A model generated the notes under the pieces. That model was not told where the DNA came from. It did no database searches and saw nothing but the letters and a program-made list of their open reading frames with translations. Both the position numbers and the translations under genes were made by a program. From Desulfosarcinaceae bacterium (GTDB lineage Bacteria; Desulfobacterota; Desulfobacteria; Desulfobacterales; Desulfosarcinaceae), in NCBI GenBank assembly GCA_030066015.1, contig JASJCL010000016.1:1-64000 (forward strand): DNA of 64,000 nt, written 5' to 3'. This document shows positions 995 to 4,304 of this stretch, piece after piece. Within the stretch, counting starts at the first letter, position 1, and every line of letters starts with the position of its first letter.

Positions 995-2665
995 ATGATG
1001 CCTGAGATCGCTGAACAGATGACGATCGATAGAAAAGAGGGCGTGCTCGACTTGTGGTCATTCGGTCAGAAGAACCTGAGGCACATTCATCGCAACCTCA
1101 CCACCGCGCAACTCTACGAACACATCATCAATAACCGCGAGGGGCAGATCGCCCAGCATGGAGCGATTGTGGTGCGCAGCGGGGATGGGGTAGAGCTGCC
1201 CCTGACGGATAAATATGTTGTCAAGGCGCCCACAGATGCCTCGGCAGCGCCTCATTCGGCCAATGAATTGGAAGCGGAGCAATTCACCCAGCTCGTGTAT
1301 CGTCTGATGGCGTATATCCAAAACAAAGAGGTCTATGTGCAGTATGCGCGCATTGGCTGTGGGCCGAAGGATAGCAGATCGGTTCGCTTTGTCACCGAAA
1401 CCGCCTGGCACAATCTGTTTGTCCGCAATATGTACACGCCGGTTGAGGGCGTCAGCGATTTCAGTGAATTCCGCGTCGATTTTTCGGTGGTCCATGTGCC
1501 CGGCTTCCGCGCGGATCCCCGTGTAGATGGTCTTCCGTCGACGGCTTTTGTGATGATCAACCTGAACCAGAAAATAATCTTCATTTGCGGTACCCATTAC
1601 GCCGGAGAGATCAAGCAGGCCGTTTTCAGCATGCTGAACTTTCTGGTCCCACCGGATGAAACCTTCCTGATGCGCTGTGCTGCCAATGTGGGGCCGGAGA
1701 AAGATGTGGCCATTTTCTTGGGCCGCGGCGGCAGCGGCAAGACCGCGTTGGCAGTGGATGGCCAAAGGCCCCTCATCGGTGATCATGTTCACGGGTGGAC
1801 GGCGGAGGGGCTGTTTGGTTTCGAACGCGGTGGGTATGCCAAGGTTCATCAGTTGACGGAAGCCAACGCCCCCCAGATTTATGCGTGCACACAGCGGTTT
1901 GGCACGATTCTGGAGAACGTCGCCATGGACTCGCTGTCGCGCCGCATCGACCTTGGCGATGGCCATTTAACACCCAACACCCGTGCAGCCTACCCGCTCA
2001 GTCATCTTGACAACTGGAAAGACACCGCCCTCTTTGGACATCCGAAACATCTTTTCCTGGTCACTTGTGATGCCTCCGGTGTGCTGCCCGCTTTGGCGCG
2101 GCTGACGACAGAACTGGCCGTCTATGCGTTCATGAGCGGTTATACCTCGCGACTGGACACACCCGAACCCACCGAAGCCGTTGCAGACTTGCGTTTCGAT
2201 GACTGCTTTGGCGCATCGACAGTGACACTGCCGGCGCACCTCTATGGGGAGCGCCTAATGGAAAAGATAGACCGCCATCAGGTGAGCTGTTGGCTGCTCA
2301 ATACGGGATGGATCGGCGAGCCGTGGTATCACGGCGAGCGCATAGATCTAGCGGTCAGCCGTGCATTGATCCATGCGGTGACTTCCGGCAGTTTGGAGGA
2401 TGTCGGTTTTGATATCGATCCGGTCTTCGGCTATGAAATCCCCACCGCCTGTCCGGGCGTGCCGGCGACCATCTTAGCCCCCCGGAAAGCGGCCCGGGAT
2501 GAAGCCGAATATGAGATTCGGGCCCACCAGCTGGCTAAAGCGTTAAGCCGAGGATTTGCCCGGTTTGAAGCCCAGATGCCGGAGAAGATGCGTCATCTCC
2601 TGGCGGCTGTAATATCATCTGATGATTCTTTTGATTTGCTCGAGAGCATGGGATTCAGCATCTAG
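995..2665 (+). CDS. pckA: ATP-type phosphoenolpyruvate carboxykinase homologue with altered metal-site residues
   Basis: The 556-residue protein aligns over its length with ATP-dependent PEP carboxykinase (oxaloacetate + ATP to PEP + CO2 + ADP). The P-loop is present as GRGGSGKTAL (residues 243-252), with K249 and T250 equivalent to E. coli K254 and T255, and NTRAAYP and SGYT also remain. The three protein ligands of the catalytic Mn2+ are replaced, at a constant offset of 5 from E. coli numbering: K213 is Q208, H232 is R227 and D269 is H264. The substrate-binding RSPKDK segment is absent and SGYTAKxAGTE has become SGYTSRLDTPE. Nucleotide binding looks possible, normal carboxykinase chemistry doubtful; it may be a paralogue with another role. 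GAGGAG precedes ATG 995, and ATG 998 gives equally good spacing. Confidence 0.8.
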   Translation: MMPEIAEQMTIDRKEGVLDLWSFGQKNLRHIHRNLTTAQLYEHIINNREGQIAQHGAIVVRSGDGVELPLTDKYVVKAPTDASAAPHSANELEAEQFTQLVYRLMAYIQNKEVYVQYARIGCGPKDSRSVRFVTETAWHNLFVRNMYTPVEGVSDFSEFRVDFSVVHVPGFRADPRVDGLPSTAFVMINLNQKIIFICGTHYAGEIKQAVFSMLNFLVPPDETFLMRCAANVGPEKDVAIFLGRGGSGKTALAVDGQRPLIGDHVHGWTAEGLFGFERGGYAKVHQLTEANAPQIYACTQRFGTILENVAMDSLSRRIDLGDGHLTPNTRAAYPLSHLDNWKDTALFGHPKHLFLVTCDASGVLPALARLTTELAVYAFMSGYTSRLDTPEPTEAVADLRFDDCFGASTVTLPAHLYGERLMEKIDRHQVSCWLLNTGWIGEPWYHGERIDLAVSRALIHAVTSGSLEDVGFDIDPVFGYEIPTACPGVPATILAPRKAARDEAEYEIRAHQLAKALSRGFARFEAQMPEKMRHLLAAVISSDDSFDLLESMGFSI

Positions 2666-2815: not shown

Positions 2816-2868
2816 GATCCGTGAATCCGACGGGGGGGCTAGGGGGCCCCAATCCGGATTCACGGATC
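2816..2868. terminator. Perfect 14-bp inverted repeat between convergent genes
   Basis: GATCCGTGAATCCG (2816-2829) is repeated in perfect inverted form at 2855-2868 around a 25-nt G/C-rich loop that itself contains a GGGGG/CCCC fold. It lies between the 3' ends of two convergent genes, which fits a bidirectional terminator, although no U-tract follows on either strand. A mobile repeat element is an alternative. Confidence 0.45.
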
Positions 2869-2954: not shown

Positions 2955-4304
2955 CTAAATCAAACCCTGGTCCTGCATGGCATTCACGACGCGCGTAAAC
3001 CCGGCGATATTGGCGCCCACCAGGTAGTTGCCGGCCTGGCCGAATTCGTCCGCCGTCTCCACACATTGGCGGTGAATGTTCTTCATGACGGCCCGCAGGC
3101 GTCCGTCCACCTCTTCGGCCGTCCAGTTCAGCAGCATGCGGTTCTGCGCCATCTCCAGCGCGGAGACGGCCACGCCCCCGCCGTTGGCGGCGGTGCAGGG
3201 AGCATAGCGCACATCACTGTCGAGAAAGATGTCCACCGCTTCTGGGGTGCAGGGCATGTCGGCCCCCTCGCAGACCAGCTGGACCCCGTTTCTGATCAAG
3301 TTGGCGGCGTCCTTGGCGTTGATCTCGTTCTCCGCCGCACAGGGAAAGGCGCAGTCGGCGGGGTGGTCCCAGAGGGGATTGTGGTCCAAGCCGCGATTCA
3401 CCTCCATGAAGGTCGCCTCGGAGTATTTGTCCACATACTCGTGGATGCGGCCGCGCTTGAGGTTCTTCAGCCGCTTGATGAAGGCCAGTTTGGCCGCATC
3501 GATCCCCTCCTCGTCGAAGATATGTCCGGTGCTGTCGGACATGGCCAGCACCTTGCCCCCCAGTTCGAGGATCTTCTCCGCCGTATGTTGGGCCACATTG
3601 CCCGACCCTGACACCAGGCAGGTCATTCCCTCCAGGGAGCGCCCCTCGGTGGCCAGGACCTCGGCGGCGAAATAGCCGATCCCGTAACCGGTGCTCTGGA
3701 GTCGCACGGCGCTGCCCCCCCAGCCCAGCCCCCGGCCGGTGAGGACGGCGGCATGTTTGCCGGTCTGTTTGCGATAGGCGCCGAAAAGGTAACCGATCTC
3801 CCGCACGCCCACCCCCATGCCGCCGCCGGGCACATCGATGTCTGGGCCGATGTGGCGGGCCAGTTCGGCCATGAAGCTCTGGCAGAAGCGCATCACCTCG
3901 TCATCCGATTTGCCCTTGGGCTCGAAATCGGATCCGCCCCGCCCGCCCCCGATGGGCAGGGTGGTGAGGGCGTTTTTGAACACCTGCTCGAAGGCCAGCA
4001 GCTTGAACGTCCCCAGACTGGCCGAGGGGTGGAAGCGCAGCCCACCCTTGTAAGGCCCCAGAACCCCGTTCATCTCCACCCGGAACCCGCGGTTGACCTG
4101 CACCTGGCCACTGTCGTCCATCCAGGGCACGCGAAAGATGAGGATCCGATCCGGCTCGATGAGGCGTTCGACAATGGCCTGGCGGGCCAGGCCGGGCCGG
4201 TTGTCCAGCACCGGCCGCACCCAGGAGAGCAGATGGGCCACCGCCTGGTGAAACTCCTGCTCCTGCGGATCTTTCTTCTCCAGCTCCTTGACAATGTCTG
4301 TCAT
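2955..4304 (-). CDS. gdhA: NADP-type glutamate dehydrogenase homologue with replaced catalytic residues
   Basis: ATG 4304 is chosen because GGAGG lies 8 nt upstream; it gives 449 residues, the normal hexameric GDH length. The family is clear from GPYKGGLRFHPS, GGSDFEPKGKSDDEVMRFCQ, the Rossmann motif SGSGNVAQ and the C-terminal GANIAGF. GDH interconverts 2-oxoglutarate + NH4+ and glutamate. The two residues known as catalytic in Clostridium symbiosum GDH differ here at a constant offset of 3: K125 (GGxKGGSDF) is R122 and D165 (DVPAGD) is G162, in DVPGGGMGVG. APGKAANAGG has also become APCTAANGGG. K110 (=K113) remains. It follows the FMN glutamate-synthase-like gene by 62 bp, probably one operon. 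It may have lost normal GDH activity or changed substrate. Confidence 0.88.
   Translation of the reverse strand: MTDIVKELEKKDPQEQEFHQAVAHLLSWVRPVLDNRPGLARQAIVERLIEPDRILIFRVPWMDDSGQVQVNRGFRVEMNGVLGPYKGGLRFHPSASLGTFKLLAFEQVFKNALTTLPIGGGRGGSDFEPKGKSDDEVMRFCQSFMAELARHIGPDIDVPGGGMGVGVREIGYLFGAYRKQTGKHAAVLTGRGLGWGGSAVRLQSTGYGIGYFAAEVLATEGRSLEGMTCLVSGSGNVAQHTAEKILELGGKVLAMSDSTGHIFDEEGIDAAKLAFIKRLKNLKRGRIHEYVDKYSEATFMEVNRGLDHNPLWDHPADCAFPCAAENEINAKDAANLIRNGVQLVCEGADMPCTPEAVDIFLDSDVRYAPCTAANGGGVAVSALEMAQNRMLLNWTAEEVDGRLRAVMKNIHRQCVETADEFGQAGNYLVGANIAGFTRVVNAMQDQGLI

Follow-up and report, generated by a model that had tools for sequence, protein, structure and literature searches.

In the glutamate, leucine, phenylalanine and valine dehydrogenases, the catalytic lysine and aspartate are conserved despite the differing specificities of these enzymes. 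GudB of Bacillus subtilis is a catalytically competent glutamate dehydrogenase (GDH), and to our knowledge a partnership between GDH and glutamate synthase is known from B. subtilis only. In that partnership, the activity of GudB is reported to be sequestered by GltA-GltB (PMC9522360, citing Jayaraman 2022), and the same source discusses YwlG, a GDH homologue of Staphylococcus aureus, as a possible pseudoenzyme. According to PMC9570180, GdhA of Thermus thermophilus has no catalytic activity and acts as a regulatory subunit. Concerning the active site itself, N348 of E. coli GDH is reported to contact the main-chain alpha-carboxyl group of the substrate, and in the C. glutamicum enzyme the coenzyme too (PMC8784811).

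We analysed a 64,000-nt stretch of a Desulfosarcinaceae genome (contig JASJCL010000016.1, positions 1 to 64,000; hereafter the window), in which a gene on the minus strand (start at 4304, stop codon at 2955-2957; Table 1) encodes an intact homologue of hexameric-type GDHs with no internal stop. In a phmmer search of the PDB, its 449-aa product was aligned end to end with solved GDHs; the best stretch against C. symbiosum GDH (1bgv) covers query residues 4-448 and target residues 7-447 with an offset of 3. The alignment with 2yfh, whose N-terminal half we take to be that of C. symbiosum GDH, has no gaps across the catalytic region. Because the alignment is ungapped with this offset, K86, K110, R122 and G162 correspond to K89, K113, K125 and D165 of C. 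symbiosum, respectively. The first-pass annotation had placed Arg and Gly at K125 and D165, and this assignment holds; its statement that both catalytic residues are lost is correct for these two, while the substrate lysines K89 and K113 are retained. The change from APGKAANAGG to APCTAANGGG that it pointed out is also present. The offset to E. coli GDH is 6, which makes R122 the equivalent of K128; the catalytic lysine is named K126 in PMC8784811, and we have taken this as a numbering difference within that paper, as the K92, K116 and N348 given there match our mapping. Since R122 and G162 recur in orthologues from four further genomes (L121/L192, L122/L191, L261 and L262), they are not a sequencing error. 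We call this protein, and its relatives with such losses, pseudo-GDHs. The product exceeds the curated NCBI cut-off of PRK09414.1 and is thus labelled NADP-GDH, and four other deviant proteins (L121, L047, L143 and L003) are also above this cut-off. Modelling with AlphaFold gave poor results for both the pseudo-GDH (16-row alignment A1) and the neighbouring GltS-like protein (17-row alignment A2), mean pLDDT being 56 and 55, and the models were set aside. The hairpin listed in Table 1 is a possible terminator, and it was absent from the output of a terminator scan that requires a T run. The convergent gene beyond it (995-2665, plus strand) encodes a homologue of ATP-dependent PEP carboxykinase that stays under every NCBIfam cut-off (best 538 versus 636 bits) and is possibly a divergent PEPCK.

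Table 1. Coordinates of the pseudo-GDH gene, its diagnostic sites and adjacent features in the window
Feature	Position	Strand	Remark
Pseudo-GDH gene	2955..4304	-	449 aa, PF02812 + PF00208; NCBIfam PRK09414.1 650.7 bits, cut-off 536
R122 codon (C. symbiosum K125)	3939..3941	-	Translation and alignment to solved GDHs
G162 codon (C. symbiosum D165), inside DVPGGGMGVG	3819..3821	-	Translation and alignment
D349 codon (E. coli N348)	3258..3260	-	Reported substrate alpha-carboxyl and coenzyme contact
APCTAANGGG, residues 368-377 (APGKAANAGG in many canonical GDHs)	3174..3203	-	
Dinucleotide-binding loop SGSGNVAQ, intact	3588..3611	-	
Strong hairpin, -37.6 kcal/mol, z -6.8	2816..2868	-	Between pseudo-GDH and convergent PEPCK-like gene
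GltS-like gene P0001, 527 aa	4367..5950	-	PF01645 matched in part; Fe-S and FMN presumed from its cysteines and its family

The GltS-like gene P0001 lies upstream of the pseudo-GDH gene on the same strand with a 62-bp gap. Its product matches PF01645 at 51.7 bits (cut-off 20.4), the best stretch covering residues 278-408 only, and no N-terminal GATase domain (PF00310) was found in it at E 0.01. The only PF00310 match of the genome belongs to another gene, on contig C42, and a 1568-aa ORF of the genome with GATase_2 and PF01645 is a usual GltB; among four other genomes examined, a GATase_2 match was not found in G216 and G089. The 3Fe-4S motif of classical glutamate synthases, which we take to be cysteines of the C..TN.CP type, occurs in none of 17 P0001 orthologues. 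All 17 carry CxxCx3Cx3C at residues 28-39, and eight cysteines are invariant throughout them. A PDB sequence search with the GltS-like protein gave no match at E 0.001, and its profile matches (designed TIM barrels and a weak Fd-GltS match at E 0.29) were not counted. Thus, the partial PF01645 match agrees with the neighbour being glutamate-synthase-like, but the missing GATase domain and classical 3Fe-4S motif, together with the separate GltB-type ORF, make a glutamate-synthase identity less certain than the first-pass annotation assumed, and we regard P0001 as a GltS-like protein that might make glutamate.

GDH sequences were collected from 80 loci on genome contigs and from genomes of relatives, of the order, of the class and of the phylum. 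Pieces from tblastn were dropped when they were below 45% identity, started after residue 60, ended before residue 425 or contained stops, and 197 distinct full-length proteins were kept. Each was typed by its residues at positions 86, 110, 122 and 162 (KKKD in canonical GDHs), to which position 349 was later added, giving five-letter types such as KKRGD. Among the first 128 distinct full-length homologues, 111 were KKKD and 17 deviant, and 16 of these 17 adjoined a GltS-like orthologue. In the set of 197, a deviation at one or more of the five positions was found in 32 of the 34 GltS-adjacent GDHs and in 21 of the 163 for which no GltS-like neighbour was seen, 19 of the latter belonging to a single K-to-A/S clade (Fisher p 2e-20, the rows not being independent). 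Adjacency was judged only where the locus included the flank, and some of the 163 rows are therefore "not seen" cases. A class-wide survey for the GltS-like gene found it in 119 of 389 genomes at E 1e-200, and flanks were fetched for part of these; a VKCD-type copy truncated at a contig end (L245, G322) and a partial copy of G320 (L259) do not count towards the 34. Of the 34 proteins, 31 deviate within the first four positions, and 30 do so at K122 or D162. Their types are KKQGD (8), VKCDD (7), KKRGD (5), KKQDT (3), KKHDS (2), one each of KKKGD, KKIDN, MNKDN, VRCDD, VKSDD, KKQDD and KKKDE, and canonical KKKDN (2); at position 349, 30 of them have D, E, S or T. The non-adjacent proteins are KKKDN (142), KKADS (10), KKADN (8), KKSDS (1), KKKDD (1) and KKQGD (1), the last in G270, where the copy has apparently moved away from its GltS-like gene. 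The five R122/G162 proteins fall into one subclade and all directly adjoin a GltS-like gene, in line with the co-occurrence that the first-pass annotation proposed to check; the further point it wished to see checked, that such proteins are always found beside that gene, stands for these five and fails for a KKQG protein (L296, the G270 copy).

Eighteen further loci of the phylum gave 16 KKKDN, one KKKDD and one KKADN, the KKADN being from the same order; only matches at E 1e-225 were kept there (21 of 395 genomes), so that deviants outside the order may be missed. The GltS-linked group has so far been found in one bacterial order only, and the named records with it are Desulfobacterales and Desulfotignum MAGs. 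Titles and abstract beginnings among the matches listed in the open-licence PMC literature mention no GDH without these residues beside a GltS-like gene.

Besides this group, there is a second one in which the catalytic lysine is replaced by Ala (Ser in L308) with the aspartate kept, comprising 19 distinct proteins plus L357 (members: L003/L319 at G000:C108:7293-8639, L231/L314, L297, L301, L303-L310, L321, L327, L330-L334 and L357), with a tree support of 88 and dN/dS of 0.05-0.12. We considered whether these KKAD/KKSD paralogues are GltS-linked and rejected it; they are located elsewhere, and four genomes in which a GltS-like orthologue was not found at E 1e-200 (G019, G011, G005 and G021) have them too. 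The copy in the window's own genome presumably lies between parC- and parE-like genes, as judged by reading the ORFs.

Within the order, the neighbourhoods of the GltS-like gene take three forms: the GltS-like gene, a protein of about 990 aa with receiver and PPDK_N domains, and then GDH (arrangement A); the GltS-like gene followed directly by GDH, which is mostly degenerate (B); and the GltS-like gene alone (C). The gap between the GltS-like gene and GDH is 21-105 bp in 31 of the 34 adjacent cases. The other three have wider gaps, of 272 bp (the K122I protein) and of 345 and 371 bp (both canonical). All GDHs with the PPDK-like gene directly upstream are KKKD (27 distinct full-length GDHs and two scored ones in the GltS-PPDK-GDH order). 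In 14 of 30 loci, no GDH was seen up to a distance of about 1.5 kb from the GltS-like gene, the PPDK-like gene lying between in some of them, and the GltS-like orthologues of 74-78% identity mostly stand alone. In other genomes a GAF-ANTAR gene is often found upstream of the GltS-like gene, which would fit nitrogen-responsive control, and it is absent from that place in the window.

Several further observations concern these neighbourhoods. The receiver + PPDK_N protein (L158:2628-5603; L117:7569-10523 in the window's own genome, about C23:81.6-84.5 kb) adjoins canonical GDHs in several phyla, and this conserved pairing may regulate GDH. Two copies of the GltS-like gene are present in G206 (loci L269 and L237/L273). 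One precedes the PPDK-like gene on a contig that also carries a canonical GDH, and the other directly adjoins the K122I GDH. The GltS-like gene of the VKCD group is preceded by a conserved gene for a 124-aa protein with an HNH domain (L044, L047, L244, L245, L247, L249-L253, L256, L257 and L259). Two genomes of the same genus, each a single contig, have a GDH beside the GltS-like gene that is divided or has fragments near it: in G270 (L236 and L296) residues 1-64 remain by the GltS-like gene and residues 55-449 lie about 1 Mb away, and in G305 (L238 and L339) an extra GDH piece covering residues 194-449, with two stops, is on the opposite side of the GltS-like gene.

Which functions decay was examined at the 128 positions that are invariant in 144 canonical GDHs, using 33 pseudo-GDHs (the 32 adjacent ones plus L296). 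The pseudo-GDHs depart from the invariant residue at 2 to 24 positions per protein, compared with 0-2 in 140 of the 144 canonical proteins. Departing cells amount to 27.6% in the D162 loop, 23.0% in EGANMP, 14.7% in GGGKGG, 12.3% in residues 1-82, 10.5% in residues 390-449, 5.9% in residues 169-226, 5.6% in PYKGG, 5.2% in residues 263-343, 4.8% in FEQxFKN and 2.6% in residues 366-389, and to only 0.5% (1 of 198 cells) in the dinucleotide loop. The contrast is partly circular, as sites 122, 162 and 349 helped to define the group, while the sparing of the dinucleotide loop is not. The pattern is also not clean, with residues 1-82 and 390-449 departing more than the substrate segments PYKGG, FEQxFKN and 366-389. 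We infer that GDH chemistry has probably been lost while coenzyme binding has been kept.

In a first tree (87 rows, IQ-TREE with ultrafast bootstrap and SH-aLRT), 15 of the 17 deviants and L133 formed one clade (98/92), and L118 (MNKD) and L003 (KKAD) were placed elsewhere. With the five sites masked, a second tree (103 rows, a quick method with SH-aLRT only) divided the adjacent deviants into two groups of 15, one of QD/HD and VKCD types (84) and the other of D162G types including L296 (99). Because the adjacent deviants split in this way, with L195 (the protein of L133), L118 and L292 outside both groups, a single origin of the GltS-adjacent clade is not secure. The minimum numbers of parsimony changes on the masked tree, each a loss or a regain, are 4 for the presence of K122, 2 for K86, 7 for N349 and 1 for D162, and the groups themselves give good support to the lysine having been lost several times separately. 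The occurrence of KKKG beside KKRG and KKQG suggests that the aspartate may have been lost before the lysine in the D162G group. KKRG and KKQG are each found in three families, and VKCD and QD/HD each in one genus.

The dN/dS of the GltS-adjacent pseudo-GDHs is 0.01-0.15 (16 pairs), as compared with 0.025-0.071 for canonical GDHs (9 pairs), 0.05-0.12 for KKAD proteins (4 pairs), 0.04-0.11 for GltS-like proteins (6 pairs) and 0.11 between the MNKD protein and its canonical relative L008; all these values are approximate, dS reaching 1.9 in the KKAD pairs and 2.4 in the canonical pairs. The pseudo-GDH genes are therefore maintained, under slightly relaxed selection. For the gene in the window, the ORF is intact and dN/dS is 0.15 against L121 and 0.09-0.11 among its three nearest relatives, which bears out the first-pass description of it as a maintained protein and not a pseudogene.

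The genome of the window has a canonical KKKD GDH at C23:80122-81468, 62% identical to the pseudo-GDH; this gene is accompanied by the PPDK-like gene, the two occupying about C23:80-84.5 kb in a region outside the window. The genome has a third GDH, of KKAD type, on C108. Among the 33 genomes whose pseudo-GDH is GltS-linked, 28, this one included, have a canonical KKKD copy, a count that includes the moved copy of G270, excludes G103 (deviant only at 349), judges G301, G031 and G147 from fragments and accepts a KKKD copy of only 48% identity in G013. That pseudo-GDH is always accompanied by canonical GDH does not hold, since in the other five genomes (G089, G148, G283, G207 and G278) none was found at E 1e-60. 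G283, G207 and G278, which are 80-88% complete, have the deviant copy alone; G148, 100% complete, has KKQD and KKAD only, and G089, a single contig and 92% complete, has KKKG and KKAD only. In six genomes with a single GDH (G127, G045, G092, G137, G027 and G332), this GDH is of canonical type. A canonical GDH encoded elsewhere could supply the activity in the 28 genomes. Across 21 genomes, distances of the pseudo-GDH correlate with those of the GltS-like protein at r 0.89 (partial 0.68) and with those of the canonical GDH at 0.84 (partial 0.52), a slight edge for the GltS-like protein that does not decide the matter, both correlations being confounded by shared ancestry.

Judged from the sequences, the pseudo-GDH very probably has no meaningful GDH activity. 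Its being a partner of the GltS-like protein is a tentative proposal, for which we put the chances a little short of even. For the whole reading, namely a protein that has lost GDH chemistry, keeps NAD(P)(H) binding and assists the GltS-like protein in a regulatory or structural role without catalysis of its own, the balance seems to be even, and it is the one we prefer, as the first-pass annotation had offered a regulatory partner of its neighbour among its possibilities. We favor it because K125 and D165 are lost, the genes are adjacent on the same strand, the losses are recurrent and differ from one another, selection is purifying and the dinucleotide loop is intact. The paralogue would fold and bind NAD(P)(H) like GDH, with glutamate/2-oxoglutarate chemistry made impossible; it would be retained by binding the GltS-like protein encoded 62 bp upstream and may relay a coenzyme or metabolite signal. 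GDH activity would presumably be unwanted inside such a complex, leaving any catalytic residue free to go, which is a plausible driver of the losses. Counter-cases exist: two GltS-adjacent GDHs are fully canonical (L165 and L255), L133 departs only at 349, many GltS-like genes stand without a GDH at their side, and the 19-protein K-to-A/S clade has lost K122 without GltS adjacency. We consider it distinctly unlikely that the pseudo-GDH joins the GltS-like Fe-S/FMN protein in a two-subunit oxidoreductase of a new kind, in which a GDH-derived hexamer, having repeatedly abandoned its own chemistry, would replace a GltD-type subunit as an NAD(P)H platform that senses or delivers reducing power to the FMN partner.

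The main rival, which we think rather unlikely, regards the pseudo-GDH as the regulatory subunit of a heterohexamer with canonical GDH, the adjacency to the GltS-like gene reflecting co-regulation only. T. thermophilus GdhA is a precedent as an inactive regulatory subunit (PMC9570180), the same length and end-to-end alignment would permit mixed hexamers, a canonical copy accompanies the pseudo-GDH in 28 of the 33 genomes including that of the window, and genomes with a single GDH match have the canonical type; against this, the canonical copy was undetected in the remaining five, the nearly or fully complete G089 and G148 among them, and the heterohexamer leaves the tracking of the losses with GltS adjacency unexplained. 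That the enzyme has been rewired to use a different substrate or catalyse a different reaction is improbable in our estimate; the acid might then have shifted, with K125 replaced by R122 or some other residue. This reading gains from the coincidence of D162G and N349D in all 15 G162 proteins (KKRGD 5, KKQGD 9 and KKKGD 1), from the positive charge that R122 preserves in the window's subclade, and from the report that changes at K116 and N348 altered the substrate range of E. coli GDH (PMC8784811). N349D is found, however, with D162 intact in 10 proteins (VKCDD 7, VRCDD, VKSDD and KKQDD), so that no simple swap has occurred, and in place of the lysine the adjacent sister lineages have Q, H, C, S or I and the other clade has A or S, which offers no common chemistry. 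Moreover, the lysine and aspartate are conserved across dehydrogenases of differing specificity. The amino-acid or imine dehydrogenase of changed specificity suggested in the first-pass annotation accordingly loses ground, some sister lineages even lacking the equivalents of K89 or N348; an active site dismantled in such differing ways is unlike tuning to one new substrate.

Early decay, with a redundant paralogue under relaxed selection heading to a pseudogene, seems very improbable to us. The dN/dS roughly twice that of canonical GDHs, the divided gene of G270 (a KKQG piece away from the remnant by the GltS-like gene), a third GDH with a stop in this genome, and the broken fragment nearby in G305 all fit such decay. 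It is opposed by dN/dS of 0.01-0.15 across dS of up to about 1, by the absence of internal stops from every listed full-length GltS-adjacent copy, by the occurrence of KKRG and KKQG in three families each, and by the kept dinucleotide loop.

The textbook view takes K125 and D165 of GDH as fixed, and here one paralogue in a defined gene context has lost them, or K89/K113, repeatedly while still being maintained. The partnership of GDH with glutamate synthase thereby becomes testable in anaerobes, with natural variants of each catalytic residue on offer. All five deviants checked are labelled NADP-specific GDH, so that GDH is likely to be overcounted in nitrogen models of Desulfobacterales, a problem that the second, K-to-A/S clade of the same order enlarges.

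As compared with the NADP-specific GDHs of subfamily I (C. symbiosum, E. coli and C. glutamicum), the pseudo-GDH shares fold, length, domain order, the K89/K113 equivalents, the dinucleotide loop and an NCBIfam score above the cut-off, and differs by K125 to R, D165 to G, the N348 equivalent to D, and APGK to APCT. It resembles T. thermophilus GdhA, as described in PMC9570180, in being a presumably inactive GDH homologue, retained in our reading for a regulatory role, whose genome also encodes a paralogue of the active type; the T. thermophilus pair belongs to another GDH subfamily (3aoe sequences at 193 and 123 bits versus 344-523 for subfamily I structures). With GudB-GltAB of B. subtilis it shares the tie of a GDH to glutamate synthase, which is physical there according to PMC9522360 and a gene linkage here; the glutamate synthase of B. 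subtilis is classical, whereas in our case a degenerate GDH is paired with a GltS-like gene whose product has neither GATase domain nor classical 3Fe-4S motif. YwlG of S. aureus is likewise a GDH homologue and possible pseudoenzyme, with HPF as its partner, and its description in the part of PMC9522360 concerned does not include loss of both catalytic residues. Inactive GDH paralogues are thus already known, and what is added here is a group of pseudo-GDHs that recurs, is maintained and goes together with a GltS-like gene.
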